From an uncultured Planctomycetota bacterium (GTDB lineage Bacteria; Planctomycetota; Phycisphaerae; Sedimentisphaerales; UBA12454), in NCBI GenBank assembly GCA_903847315.1, contig CAINDG010000004.1, forward strand, positions 1-34,839: a DNA stretch of 34,839 bases. Direction: 5' to 3'. Every line of letters starts with the position of its first letter. The stretch's first letter is position 1. The notes under the pieces are model-generated. The model did not search any database. It worked only from the letters and a program-made list of their open reading frames with translations, and had not been told where the DNA came from. Shown here in pieces: positions 13,808 through 18,836 of the stretch. Position numbers and translations under genes: made by a program.

Positions 13808-14893
13808 TTATGTCTGATTTTGTGTATTGAAAACTCTTACCGTATTTTTGCCGGCCTGTTTTGCGGCATAAAGCGCTTCATCGCTGTGGTGGGTTATATC
13901 TTCCGGCCGCATATCGCCTTCATATTGGCCCACGCCGATGCTGATGAACAGTTGAATTTTCTCTCGTTCCCAGATTATTGGTGTCTGCGAAACTTCCCCG
14001 ATCATTCTCTCGGCTGCGATAACGGCATCTGGAATTGAAGTGTTTGGCAGTATAATTGCGAATTCATCTCCGCCGTATCTGGCCGCAACATCGATTTTGC
14101 GAATACAGGCAGCTATTTTCCTGCTGACCCTTTTTATTGCTATATCGCCTGCACGATGGCCGTAAGTGTCGTTAATGGATTTCAAATTATCTATATCAAC
14201 CATTATTATGGAAATCTGTCCGCCGTATCGCTGGCACCTGCGAAGTTCCTTTTCAAGAAGCTCGTAGAACGTTTTATGATTGACCAAACCGGTCAGGCCG
14301 TCGGTCTTGGCCTGGAGCTGGGTTTTCTCGAAAAGTTTTATATTGCCGATGGATGCTCCGATAAGATGTCTGAATAACTCGATTACGGCGATATCCTCAT
14401 TGGTAAATTTTTCACCATCGATTTTATCGGCGAGATTAAGCACGCCGACCACCCTGTTCTGGCAGACAAGCGGGGCGATTATGCATGTCGAGGAGTTGTA
14501 GTTTTGGGTAAACCTTCGGCTGCATTTATCCGCAGCAGGGGATTTGTGCAGCTCGGTGTTCTCAATAACGATAAGTTCCTTGCTTTGAACAGCCTTTATC
14601 ATTGGCGACAGATTGGCCTGGTTCAGAGAGACTATGTTATTGATAAGATAGGAGTGGTTGTGGTTCTCAAGATGCAGCATATCGCTAACCTCGTCAAGTA
14701 TATATAAGGATGCGAAACAGGCGTTGATTAGCTTCGGTATCTCTTCAACACAGATTTTGCTAATCTGCTGCAGGTCGAGGCAGTTTATCTGCTGCACAAG
14801 CGGGGTGATAGCATCCAAACAGCCGGTATGGATTTTTGTCTCTGGCTGACTTTGAGTCCCAAAATCATTATTATTGTCTATATTATTGTCCAT
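13808..14893 (-). CDS. GAF-GGDEF diguanylate cyclase
   Basis: A soluble 361-residue signalling enzyme making cyclic di-GMP from two GTP. A GAF-like sensor domain occupies about 40-185. The cyclase domain runs from 195 to 355, with DxLTGLxN-type entry TDGLTGLVNHKTF, the metal/GTP motif VDIDNLKSINDTYGH, and an intact active site GGDEF at 274-278. The inhibitory site RxxD (RKID, 265-268) stands exactly five residues before GGDEF, so product feedback is expected. No transmembrane helix. It is transcribed divergently from the MerR-FlgB-like-FlhG-FliA block across a 355-nt interval, which makes a link to motility control plausible. The GAF ligand is unknown. Confidence 0.94.
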   Translation of the reverse strand: MDNNIDNNNDFGTQSQPETKIHTGCLDAITPLVQQINCLDLQQISKICVEEIPKLINACFASLYILDEVSDMLHLENHNHSYLINNIVSLNQANLSPMIKAVQSKELIVIENTELHKSPAADKCSRRFTQNYNSSTCIIAPLVCQNRVVGVLNLADKIDGEKFTNEDIAVIELFRHLIGASIGNIKLFEKTQLQAKTDGLTGLVNHKTFYELLEKELRRCQRYGGQISIIMVDIDNLKSINDTYGHRAGDIAIKRVSRKIAACIRKIDVAARYGGDEFAIILPNTSIPDAVIAAERMIGEVSQTPIIWEREKIQLFISIGVGQYEGDMRPEDITHHSDEALYAAKQAGKNTVRVFNTQNQT

Positions 14894-15248
14894 AACTCTC
14901 TTGTTTTTAATGATTTATGTCATAAATATACTGTAAGCCGGCTATTTTTGCACCGGCAAATCAGATATATTTCTTTCCTAACTTAAAGGTCCGAGAAAAA
15001 TCACTTAAAGGATACTCCCTGAGCTTTATGCCATTGGTGCTACTTAAAGAATAGGAAGTCTTTACGCCAATTCCAAATAGGGACTAAAAAATTTTAAAAA
15101 AATCCGAAAAAGTCATTGACGGTTATCGGAATATGATTTACATTTTATAAAACGTAAAAGCTATTTTTACGAACACGAACTGATATTAAGGGACTTAAAA
15201 ACGAGTCCTGCATCTGCCTGCGGCGGATAAATCTGGAAGGATTTGACA
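14894..15248. other. Divergent intergenic region between cyclase and motility block, with repeated ACTTAAAG
   Basis: No gene seen. The octamer ACTTAAAG occurs on the plus strand at 14981-14988, 15003-15010 and 15042-15049, with a near copy ACTTAAAA at 15193-15200. A GCCGG/CCGGC hairpin with an 11-nt loop lies near 14938-14957. A fair promoter towards the MerR gene is at 15116-15144, leaving an untranslated leader of about 100 nt. The arrangement of three identical octamers ahead of that promoter resembles a set of activator or repressor sites, but no known regulator motif was recognised. Confidence 0.4.
15116..15144 (+). promoter_or_regulatory. Probable sigma-70 promoter of the MerR-FlgB-like-FlhG genes
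   Basis: TTGACG (15116-15121), 17 nt, TACATT (15139-15144): five and four of six consensus matches with ideal spacing. It lies about 100 nt before the MerR ATG and downstream of three ACTTAAAG octamers. Confidence 0.45.
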
Positions 15249-15533
15249 ATGTTTGAGATTCATCAGTCAGATTCGCAAAGAAGTGAAAAGAAAGGCTTTG
15301 CCGCTCCCGAAAAATTATACCGAATCGGTGAAATCGTTCGCTACACTCCTTATTCACGCCAGACAATTCACAACTACACAATTATGGGTCTTATAAAAGA
15401 ATCATCGTGGACCGATGGCGGCCACAGATTATATGACGCAAGCGTTTTCGAAAGACTTTCGCAAATATCGGAACTGAGAAAAACGAAAACGTTAAATCAG
15501 ATAAGAGAACTGCTGAAAGATAACAGTAATTGA
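15249..15533 (+). CDS. Small MerR-family DNA-binding protein
   Basis: The protein has 94 residues from the ATG at 15249, which has GGAAGG 8 nt upstream; a TTG six bases earlier is too close to that SD. A MerR-type winged helix-turn-helix is visible from about 23 to 85. LYRIGEIVRYTPYSRQTIHNY is the helix-turn-helix, GLIKESSWTDGGHRLYD the wing with the family's 'GG.R.Y' feature, and a short helix ends the protein. There is no C-terminal effector domain, so it likely acts as a compact DNA-binding protein. It begins the motility control block, with the FlgB-like gene 37 nt downstream. A direct flagellar role is inferred from position only. Confidence 0.85.
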   Translation: MFEIHQSDSQRSEKKGFAAPEKLYRIGEIVRYTPYSRQTIHNYTIMGLIKESSWTDGGHRLYDASVFERLSQISELRKTKTLNQIRELLKDNSN

Positions 15534-15570: not shown

Positions 15571-16044
15571 TTGACAGACAACACGAGACAAATGGATTTG
15601 ACATCGCTGATACAGGATAACATTGATGAGATACTTATCAAAGTTATTCAGTTTACCCATATATACCACAACCTGATTTCCGAAAATATTCGAAACTGCC
15701 GAGTCGCAGGTTTTGTTCCCAGATATATAGATGCCGAAGATTTCGCGAAGGTTATTTCCGCTGCGCTGGCCGAACATCAGATGAGCAAACGTCTTGCCCT
15801 GTGCGATAGCGGAACAGTCAGCTTTCTGCCGGGCGGAGATTTCCGTTTGGAACCTCAGATAGATATGGAAGCGGCCAGACTGATTGGCAGTGATTTCGAG
15901 GCGTACATCAGACTCCAAAAAAACAGGTTACAAGATAACTCGATAAACAATAAAACCGCCTGCGCTCTGCTGGAGCATAAACTGTATAAGGCCCGGAGAT
16001 TAGAGAATCAAACGAAAGATAACGCGATTAAAAGCAAAGCTTAA
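15571..16044 (+). CDS. Divergent FlgB-like (flagellar rod-type) protein
   Basis: 157 residues from TTG at 15571, with AGGA 8 nt upstream. Residues about 22-63 align with the start of flagellar rod protein FlgB: the pattern F....HN.L..NI.N....GF....D...F...I..AL is seen in FTHIYHNLISENIRN followed by CRVAGFVPRYIDAEDF. In genuine FlgB the middle reads NIAN.DTPGY; here it is NIRNCRVAGF, so the rod signature is eroded. The central region has a Gly/Leu-rich turn, and an acidic-basic helical tail (about 108-157) replaces the usual FlgB end. It is cotranscribed with a MerR gene and flhG-fliA. It could be a rod paralogue, or an adaptor derived from one. The family link is reasonable, the function open. 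Confidence 0.6.
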   Translation: MTDNTRQMDLTSLIQDNIDEILIKVIQFTHIYHNLISENIRNCRVAGFVPRYIDAEDFAKVISAALAEHQMSKRLALCDSGTVSFLPGGDFRLEPQIDMEAARLIGSDFEAYIRLQKNRLQDNSINNKTACALLEHKLYKARRLENQTKDNAIKSKA

Positions 16045-16100
16045 CTTTTTACTAAATAAATAGTTGTATACAAGGACTGGATTCATTCATGGAGGAATCG

Positions 16101-16949
16101 ATGAGTCAGGGAAGCGTTCAGGAGCTGGCAGCACTTGCCGCCGATAGCGGCAAAAAAGCTATGATTCTAACGATAGCCAGCGGAAAAGGAGGAGTAGGCA
16201 AGACGAATATCGCGGCCAACCTTGCGATATGTCTTGCTGCGGCCGGAAAAAGAGTAGCAATTCTCGATGCGGATTTCGGCCTTGCAAATCTCGATATCAT
16301 TCTCGGCATCAGCAGTAAATATAATCTGTCTCATTTCATAAAAGGTGTAAAAAATCTGGAGGAGATATCCCAGCCGGTCTGCCAGGGCGTTGATATTTAT
16401 TGCGGCCTGTCGGGAGTAGAGCATCTGGCACAGATGACGGATTTTGCCAGAGAAAGAATTATCACGGCACTGGATAGTCTGGCGGACAACTACGATATCG
16501 TTGTGGTGGACACGGCGGCAGGTATCGGCAAAACAGTGCTGGCGTTCTGTATGGCCTCAGACCATACGATACTTGTTGGAACACCCGACCCCGCGGCGAT
16601 AACAGATGCCTATACACTTTTAAAAGCACTTGTAATCAATAAATATAACGGCAGAACGAGTCTGCTTGTAAATATGGTACACGATGACGCTCAGGGCAGA
16701 AAGGTTTACAGACAAATAGCTTCAGCGGCAGCGCAATTTCTCAACGTTAAACTCAATATGGCTGGAGTGATGTTAAGGGACGAGCATTTAATATCTTCCG
16801 TCCAGAAAAGAGAGCCTGTTGTGCTGGCTTATCCGAAAAGCTCCACAGCGAAGTCTCTTATGGCCGTTGCCGCAAGACTCGGCAGGGTGCCGCTGTCATC
16901 TTCAACAGACGAAGGATTTTTCAGAAAAGTTGTTAACTGGTTTTTCTAA
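16101..16949 (+). CDS. flhG: FlhG/MinD-like ATPase (flagellar number regulator)
   Basis: A 282-residue SIMIBI ATPase. The deviant Walker A is GKGGVGKT (28-35), with the AILDADFGLANLDIILG switch segment and VVVDTAAGIG Walker B region. The C-terminus DEGFFRKVVNWFF is an amphipathic membrane-targeting helix as in MinD and FlhG. Location directly before fliA argues for FlhG (MinD2) rather than MinD. The N-terminal DQA..LR-like FlhF-activating motif is only weakly echoed (VQELAALA). The start chosen is the ATG at 16101, which has GGAGGA upstream; an ATG at 16089 contains that SD inside its own reading frame and has none of its own. FlhF is not in the window. Confidence 0.88.
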   Translation: MSQGSVQELAALAADSGKKAMILTIASGKGGVGKTNIAANLAICLAAAGKRVAILDADFGLANLDIILGISSKYNLSHFIKGVKNLEEISQPVCQGVDIYCGLSGVEHLAQMTDFARERIITALDSLADNYDIVVVDTAAGIGKTVLAFCMASDHTILVGTPDPAAITDAYTLLKALVINKYNGRTSLLVNMVHDDAQGRKVYRQIASAAAQFLNVKLNMAGVMLRDEHLISSVQKREPVVLAYPKSSTAKSLMAVAARLGRVPLSSSTDEGFFRKVVNWFF

Positions 16950-16977
16950 TAAACATCTATTTTCAATAGGCCGATAT
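16950..16977 (+). promoter_or_regulatory. Sigma-28/SigmaD-type promoter directly before fliA
   Basis: TAAA (16950-16953), 16 nt, GCCGATAT (16970-16977). This matches the established Bacillus SigmaD consensus TAAA-N14-16-GCCGATAT exactly. It overlaps the end of the flhG stop region and lies about 40 nt before the fliA start. It suggests that the sigma factor amplifies its own expression. It also argues against an ATG at 16976 as the fliA start, since that codon lies in the -10 element. Confidence 0.7.
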
Positions 16978-17017
16978 GAAAAGAGCCGCTAAAGGCATTG
17001 ATTTTGGAGAATATACA

Positions 17018-17809
17018 ATGACGACAGCAAAAAAAGCGACATCAGAAGTTGATAGTATTGATGCGGTATGGAAAAAGTTCTTTAAGGAACATTCCGAAGA
17101 GCTGCGCAACAAACTGATGGAGCATTATCTGCCGCTGGTCAAGTACACGGCAGAACGCATATATGTCAAACTGCCCGACAAAGTAGAAGTTGACGATCTT
17201 ATCAGCGCCGGCATATTCGGCCTGATGGATGCGATAGACGCCTTCGACCCAAAACGAGGCGTAAAATTCGCCACCTACTGCACGCCGCGTATAAGAGGAG
17301 CTATTCTCGATGAACTTCGCAGTATGGACTGGGTGCCTCGCCTTGTCAGGGCAAGGGCGCATCAGCTTGGAAATGCCACAAGAACGCTTGAAGCGCACCT
17401 CGGCAGGATTCCTACCGAGCAGGAAATCGCCGGCGAACTCGAAATGGATATGGAGAATTTTCATCGCCTCCAGCGGGATGCGAGCGCTATAGGCATTGTT
17501 TCGCTCAGTAATAATCTCGACTTCGAAGGCGACAATGATATCTGCGAAATAGACGTAATCGAGGACAAAAAGAGCGAAGACCCGATGACCGAAGCCCAGA
17601 AACGCGACCTCAAAAGCCTTTTGACTAAGGGATTAAGCAGGGCCGAACGCCTTATCCTTGTTCTCTATTATTATGAGGAAATGACTATGAAAGAAATCGG
17701 CGCAACCCTTGATTTATCCGAATCGAGAGTTTCGCAGATGCATTCTTCCATAATCGCCAGGCTCAAAGCCCAGATGGGAACGCGCAAAAAAGAATTTGCC
17801 CCCAAATAG
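17018..17809 (+). CDS. fliA: Flagellar sigma factor FliA (sigma-28, WhiG/SigmaD type)
   Basis: 263 residues from the ATG at 17018, which has TTGGAGA 7 nt upstream. Region 2 is present (LVKYTAERIYVKLP, VDDLISAGIFGLMDAIDAFDP, the -10-contacting KFATYCTPRIRGAILDELRSMDWVPR), then region 3 (QLGNATRTLEAHLGRIPTEQEIA). Region 4 helix-turn-helix is TMKEIGATLDLSESRVSQMHSSII near 221-244. The 'RGAILDELRSMDWVPR' string is diagnostic for sigma-28. It directs late flagellar and chemotaxis genes. It follows flhG, and its own SigmaD-type promoter is recognisable immediately upstream. Downstream, an 18-bp inverted repeat starts at the base after the stop codon. No FlgM anti-sigma gene is visible nearby. Confidence 0.95.
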   Translation: MTTAKKATSEVDSIDAVWKKFFKEHSEELRNKLMEHYLPLVKYTAERIYVKLPDKVEVDDLISAGIFGLMDAIDAFDPKRGVKFATYCTPRIRGAILDELRSMDWVPRLVRARAHQLGNATRTLEAHLGRIPTEQEIAGELEMDMENFHRLQRDASAIGIVSLSNNLDFEGDNDICEIDVIEDKKSEDPMTEAQKRDLKSLLTKGLSRAERLILVLYYYEEMTMKEIGATLDLSESRVSQMHSSIIARLKAQMGTRKKEFAPK

Positions 17810-17990: not shown

Positions 17991-18836
17991 ATGCGTTTTA
18001 CGAAAATGCACGGGCTTGGCAACGATTATATCTTTGTCAACTGTTTTGAAGAACGGGTTGAAAACCCGGCGGAACTTGCCCCGGCCGTAAGCGACCGCCA
18101 TCGCGGCGTCGGCGCAGACGGTCTAATTTTGATATGCCCGTCTGATATCGCGGATGTGAAAATGAGAATTTTCAACGCCGATGGTTCCGAGGCCCAGATG
18201 TGCGGCAACGGAATACGATGCGTCGCCAAATATGCTTACGAACATAAACTTGCCAAAAACAGAAAACCGTCTATGAAAATCGAGACCGGCAGGGGCGTGC
18301 TTACGCTTGGTCTTGAGATTGATAAAAAAGACAAAGTCGAAAAAGTCTGCGTAAATATGGGTCAGCCCATTCTTGAGCCTGCGAAAATTCCGGTTACTCT
18401 TGACGGCGATAGTATAATTGAAGCCGCCATAGACGTCCGCAATCAGCGGATGCTGATGACGTGCGTCTCGATGGGAAATCCGCACGCGATGTTTTTCGTT
18501 GACGACCTTTCGTCAATTGAACTTGAGAAAGTCGGGCCGGTAATCGAGCATCACGAACTTTTCCCGCAGAGAGTAAACGCCCATTTTGTCAGGGTCGATT
18601 CACAGAACGAATTTACGATGATGACATGGGAAAGAGGCAGCGGCGTTACCCTCGCCTGCGGCACGGGCGCCTGCGCCTGCTGCGTGGCTGCCGTCCTTAC
18701 GGACAGATGCAAAAGAACTGTAACGGCTCACCTGCCGGGCGGAGACCTGCTGATTAACTGGTCAAAAGAAGACAACTGCGTTTATATGACAGGTCCTGCG
18801 GTAGAAGTCTTCACCGGCGATTGGCTGATAAGCTGA
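17991..18836 (+). CDS. dapF: Diaminopimelate epimerase
   Basis: Interconverts LL- and meso-diaminopimelate, supplying lysine and the peptidoglycan cross-linking residue. The 281 residues have the canonical beginning MRFTKMHGLGNDYIFV. The two catalytic cysteines stand in CGNGIRC (C71) and in ACGTGAC (C223). GVGADGLILI and MGNPHAMFFVDD are further family blocks. The SD GAGGG is well placed before the ATG. Its stop lies 5 nt before the queG ATG, so the two are cotranscribed. Cytosolic. The asd, dapA and dapB genes are not here. Confidence 0.96.
   Translation: MRFTKMHGLGNDYIFVNCFEERVENPAELAPAVSDRHRGVGADGLILICPSDIADVKMRIFNADGSEAQMCGNGIRCVAKYAYEHKLAKNRKPSMKIETGRGVLTLGLEIDKKDKVEKVCVNMGQPILEPAKIPVTLDGDSIIEAAIDVRNQRMLMTCVSMGNPHAMFFVDDLSSIELEKVGPVIEHHELFPQRVNAHFVRVDSQNEFTMMTWERGSGVTLACGTGACACCVAAVLTDRCKRTVTAHLPGGDLLINWSKEDNCVYMTGPAVEVFTGDWLIS

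Follow-up and report, generated by a model that had tools for sequence, protein, structure and literature searches.

A FlgB-derived relict gene beside fliA in Sedimentisphaerales, with a likely non-flagellar role

What does a gene resembling flgB do among regulatory genes in a bacterium that appears to lack a flagellum? The question is raised by a locus in a 34,839-nucleotide stretch of contig CAINDG010000004.1 (assembly GCA_903847315.1, an uncultured planctomycete of the order Sedimentisphaerales), called the window below. The gene, here termed relict flgB (product P0001, a FlgB-family protein), lies at 15571..16044 on the + strand and encodes 157 aa if read from TTG 15571 and 150 aa if read from ATG 15592; the alignment showed that the in-frame ATG matches the conserved family start better. 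On its 5′ side are a small MerR-type regulator, essentially a DNA-binding domain alone (15243..15533, +), and a divergent GAF-GGDEF diguanylate cyclase with an intact GGDEF motif (13808..14893, −). On its 3′ side are a FlhG/MinD-like ATPase (16089..16949, +, likely start ATG 16101), a FliA/WhiG sigma-28 factor (16976..17809, +, likely start ATG 17018 preceded by GGAG) that scored 267.5 bits against TIGR02479, above the cut-off of 189.6, and dapF (17991..18836, +), which is thought to lie outside the module. A match to a sigma-28-type promoter, TAAA-N16-GCCGATAT, stands before fliA (16950..16977, +). The preliminary description had placed the gene with regulators and not with flgC and fliE, and MerR, the FlhG-like ATPase and FliA were all confirmed beside it.

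Similarity to FlgB was found to exceed chance at the family level only, since the single protein has almost no profile signal and the family does. P0001 alone matched no Pfam family at E≤10; against NCBIfam it reached FlgB at E=0.016 with 15.6 bits, below the curated cut-off of 163 for NF009264. A PDB sequence search with P0001 alone returned a HigA antitoxin and nuclear-receptor chains, which were rejected as chance hits. Relatives turned up in most of the 59 related genomes that we then searched, and 37 sequences were aligned (alignment A1), with 12 columns invariant across six families. The FlgB model TIGR01396 matched 26 of these 37 members (best E=7e-9); the FlgB of family f4, described below, clears the cut-off of that model (69.9 versus 59.05). 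The family profile in turn recovered planctomycete FlgBs with E-values as low as 2e-18; when it was compared with a profile of planctomycete FlgBs, the result was E=6e-26 across nearly the entire length, versus 2.8e-5 for a second type of FlgB. When the A1 profile was run against 392 genomes of the phylum, its own family, which was confined to this order, scored 180–191 bits and other matches 20–68 bits, the best of these being full-length FlgBs. No homologue was found in the plasmid sequences searched, and close relatives in assembled genome contigs amounted to two loci only.

Sequence comparison also located what has changed. As described earlier, NIRNCRVAGF occupies the NIAN.DTPGY position of FlgB; FlgB-like text such as NITNVNTPGFIPKDLDV is preserved in more distant family members. 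The C-terminal helix that had been called unusual is, according to the alignment, the FlgB helix itself without its last ~12 residues, and what is foreign is the unrelated hydrophilic tail that follows; the complete C-terminal polymerisation helix of FlgB is absent. F51 is invariant in the family, and its alignment to F45 of Salmonella FlgB, an export signal in that protein (PMC9307174), is ambiguous by three residues. The AlphaFold model (pLDDT 95.4, pTM 0.86) has the FlgB fold: the top 21 Foldseek hits were all proximal-rod entries, and superposition on proximal-rod FlgB gave Z 10.5 (VIA) over 100 residues at 2.5 Å, the sequence of the matched chains (7bin_Q/7cg0) being named FlgB. The earlier claim of FlgB likeness holds, and profile searches bear it out at the family level, with almost no signal from P0001 alone. 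The open reading frame is genuine and is a homologue of FlgB.

We next considered whether a flagellum could be present. In this genome (G000; a 2.44 Mb draft in 54 contigs, 97% complete), searches for FlhA, PF00460 rod/hook proteins and the flagellin N-domain found none, and the controls were positive. The suggestion that the protein takes part in motility control does not fit such a genome, and the canonical flgB that had been proposed as a check is missing here, as no PF00460 protein was found; flagellated relatives outside f4 do carry a separate FlgB. FlhA and PF00460 were both missing in 12 of the 59 relatives, and nine of the 12 retain relict flgB (G000, G003, G005, G010, G018, G034, G037, G045 and G055), although most of these genomes are metagenome-assembled and single absences are weak. 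Within genera g1 and g26, FlhA is present in some members and missing in others, so the flagellum was lost more than once while relict flgB was kept. In family f3, three single-contig genomes (G014, G019 and G023) have lost flagella, relict flgB and the adjoining FliA together, and a fourth, G031, retains relict flgB. Since the export gate and every other rod protein are missing from G000, the protein would no longer be able to build a rod there, and with no export gate it is probably cytosolic. We filed it as a FlgB-derived relict and not as a rod protein because the functional features tested fail, namely the curated score, the complete C-terminal helix and the presence of partners.

The origin of the locus was indicated by gene order. 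Family f4 is flagellated and lacks relict flgB, and its flagellar cluster reads NtrC-flgB-flgC-fliE-fliF-fliG-...-fliI-...-flgE-motA-...-fliR-flhB-flhA-flhF-flhG-orf-fliA-dapF, where names other than those of FlgB, FlgC, FliE, FliA and the MinD-like ATPase were assigned from sequence and order. The orf between flhG and fliA is small (~100–123 aa, for example L124:11061-11432) and conserved at the corresponding place in other f4 clusters. In two f4 genomes (G015 and G020) the same divergent pair of GGDEF and MerR genes stands 5′ of the whole flagellar cluster, and dapF is the shared anchor downstream. The window thus has the f4 flanks in the f4 order, with the divergent GGDEF and MerR genes followed by relict flgB, flhG, fliA and dapF; the other relict loci checked have this order as far as their sequence extends, with MerR 5′ of relict flgB in all of them. 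By synteny, the locus corresponds to an f4-type cluster minus the genes that separate MerR from flgB and flgB from flhG. As to direction, collapse seems the better reading than insertion because the protein is a diverged FlgB and f4-type FlgBs are found elsewhere in the phylum. Everything between flgB and flhG would have been lost in a common ancestor of most families of the order, and relict flgB would be the flgB that survived from an ancestral flagellar supercluster. The idea of a repurposed rod paralogue is therefore kept in part: repurposing is the best reading, and the gene, rather than being a relocated duplicate, occupies the ancestral flgB position in a collapsed cluster.

Outside f4, flagellated genomes have a second flagellar system, which includes a FlgB and a FliA of its own (FlhA ~42% and FliA ~30% identical to those of f4), and its ~120-aa FlgBs form one clade in the tree (100/100). 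Constraining relict FlgB with these FlgBs was rejected (AU p=0.03), and constraining it with f4 FlgB was not (AU p=0.23). Because the relict stem is long (1.6), the tree alone cannot place the family securely with f4 FlgB, and it is synteny that carries the ancestry.

Of the 46 genomes of the order outside f4, we found relict flgB in 41, including nine that have no flagella, and the FliA of the locus accompanies it in all 41 (the G012 copy is truncated by a contig end). Four of the five non-f4 genomes without relict flgB (G014, G019, G023 and G056) also lack this FliA, and the fifth, G027, is uninformative. Taken together with the homology and the origin of the locus, we consider it probable (about 0.75) that the protein is a relict FlgB retained for a role outside the flagellum that is linked to FliA, although neighbour position alone may explain the joint retention of the two genes. 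In several f6 genomes a third FliA/WhiG-type sigma factor is encoded outside the two flagellar loci (G025:C43, G029:C5:162070, G033:C1:2562838, G039:C7:219868, G041:C41 and G057:C49).

A partnership with the MinD/FlhG-like ATPase or with MerR, in which relict FlgB might serve as a small coiled-coil adaptor that places the complex at the membrane and its proximity to fliA is incidental, appears improbable. It would suit the position of flhG directly 3′ of relict flgB in most loci, the Walker motif and membrane-binding tail (FFRKVVNWFF at the C-terminus) retained by the ATPase, and the occurrence of MerR at every locus checked. However, flhG is missing between relict flgB and fliA in six genomes (G034, G037, G045, G048, G050 and G052) that retain both flanking genes. 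Relict flgB therefore tracks FliA and not FlhG, and of the conserved flhG-fliA association expected earlier, the fliA half extends across the order.

Still less probable is that the protein remains of rod type, serving the second flagellum as an accessory rod protein and lingering as a fading remnant where that flagellum was lost. The retained fold and N-terminal FlgB region agree with this, as does the fact that flagellated relatives carry both proteins, but the second system already possesses a FlgB, the polymerising helix lacks its last ~12 residues, and the nine genomes without FlhA or PF00460 nevertheless keep the gene. Moreover, pairwise dN/dS was 0.07–0.26, and the aflagellate pairs G000/G003 and G037/G034 gave 0.14 and 0.26, respectively, indicating purifying selection. 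That the gene encodes an ordinary FlgB for a flagellum hidden by gaps in a 54-contig draft, and has been moved out of its operon, is very improbable and is already contradicted by the absence of FlhA, rod/hook proteins and flagellin at 97% completeness, by the absence of FlhA and rod/hook proteins in eight further genomes with relict flgB, by the loss of the NIAN.DTPGY signature and the C-terminus, and by the separate FlgB of flagellated congeners. Least credible of all is a passive coding sequence, a translated leader or translational coupler of flhG or fliA without protein function, which would account for the gene always lying directly 5′ of one or the other but not for the amino-acid constraint seen in dN/dS and the 12 invariant columns, nor for a fliA promoter located 3′ of relict flgB.

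To return to the role tied to FliA, the regulatory sequences around the locus seem to have been rewired. Promoters were identified as sequence matches, and a loose-pattern scan of the whole G000 genome for sigma-28 sites gave numbers near background (22 versus 16 in the reversed control), and we used sites only where they were conserved across genomes. Of 40 relict loci, 31 have a sigma-28-type promoter, TAAA-N15..17-GCCGATAA/T, before fliA at a score of at least 10.5, compared with 3 of 980 shuffles, none of five f4 loci and none of four loci of the second-system FliA. A similar promoter precedes the gene of an ~80-aa protein, which occurs in 55 of the 59 genomes, in families f1, f2 and f7, whether flagellated or not, and is absent before this gene in f4. 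On this evidence, fliA and non-flagellar genes appear to have acquired sigma-28-type promoters. The ~80-aa protein (A2; L180, L166 and others; G000:C38:45062-45289) reads QLVLNKG..KFIFRY..G.ED.LLDAL...FDWFDAAVLSFKL, with a beta-hairpin and two helices; this putative sigma-28 target had no family in Pfam and no structural match in the PDB, and in the f7 loci read its gene lies between radical-SAM-like and xerC/D-like genes. Separately, we noted a 34-nt element, ATTTAAAGCTATCTTCTTTTTTTGCCGATATTTA, shared without any change by four genomes from two genera, with diverged flanks (L100, L156, L240 and L236; G000:C16:12234-12261); it lies 5′ of a NAD-dependent sugar epimerase/dehydratase gene and resembles a sigma-28 promoter, but its spacer is conserved too.

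The ATPase has changed as well. The N-terminal DQAxxLR, by which FlhG stimulates FlhF (PMC12826062), is missing from the FlhG in the window, as it is from every other relict-locus FlhG examined, and is present in five of five f4 FlhGs (DQAQKLR in L125). Furthermore, a protein with the FlgM signature is encoded away from the locus in aflagellate G000, G003, G010, G034 and G037. In the genomes read, this gene for a FlgM-like anti-sigma factor (L133:2694-2981 in G000:C44) lies near spoVG and ispE. Its retention in these five genomes weakened the idea that relict FlgB replaces FlgM.

These data suggest that a structural building block has become part of a regulatory circuit. The remnant locus would have turned into a flagellum-independent sigma-28 circuit as fliA gained a sigma-28-type promoter of its own, and non-flagellar genes would have joined by acquiring such promoters. 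The mechanism we favour is that relict FlgB acts as a cytosolic partner that sets FliA activity, by binding FliA or titrating FlgM, and so might stand in for the release of FlgM by secretion through a flagellum. A counterpoint is that FliA already has a possible regulator in the FlgM-like protein. Direct binding to FliA or FlgM is put forward tentatively, with the odds somewhat against it; and it is a shade less likely again that, throughout the order, a rod protein has turned sigma-28 regulator whose cytosolic binding of FliA or FlgM replaces the secretion-coupled checkpoint, leaving a flagellar transcription switch without the flagellum.

Relict FlgB explains a class of unannotated genes adjoining fliA in Phycisphaerae, and the locus cautions that fliA, flhG or flgB-like genes in metagenome-assembled genomes are not proof of motility. 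Our search of the open-access literature returned no FlgB described as retained in such a sigma-28 module; Legionella is already known to keep FliA and FlgM after losing the flagellum, and among the papers searched we found no report of a rod protein surviving with both in several separate flagellum-less lineages. Relative to FlgB of the proximal rod (TIGR01396; Salmonella 7cg0, 7bin and 8wk3), the relict shares the fold, the N-terminal helix region, the place ahead of flgC and fliE in the ancestral cluster and a near full-length profile match to planctomycete FlgBs, but its signature is eroded, its last ~12 residues are replaced, it scores under the curated cut-off of the sole model it reached, and it persists in genomes that lack the export gate and any other rod protein. 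The FlhF-FlhG switch (PMC12826062) likewise employs a MinD-like ATPase with a membrane-targeting tail, whereas here the locus contains no flhF and its FlhG has lost the DQAxxLR enhancer helix. In the WhiG-RsiG system of Actinobacteria (PMC8325347), a FliA/WhiG-family sigma factor is also in non-flagellar use, and a diguanylate cyclase adjoins the locus here, but relict FlgB has the FlgB fold and there is no evidence of RsiG likeness. A parallel for a sigma-28 factor and FlgM outlasting the flagellum is non-flagellated Legionella oakridgensis, which keeps FliA and FlgM and has to regulate their interaction with no secretion step (PMC5655016), FlgM release through a flagellum being unavailable in either case; there only FliA and FlgM homologues persist, whereas here a rod protein, a FlhG-like ATPase, MerR and GGDEF form one locus across the order, which offers a natural experiment both on the sigma-28/FlgM switch where secretion of FlgM is impossible and on the exaptation of a self-assembling subunit.
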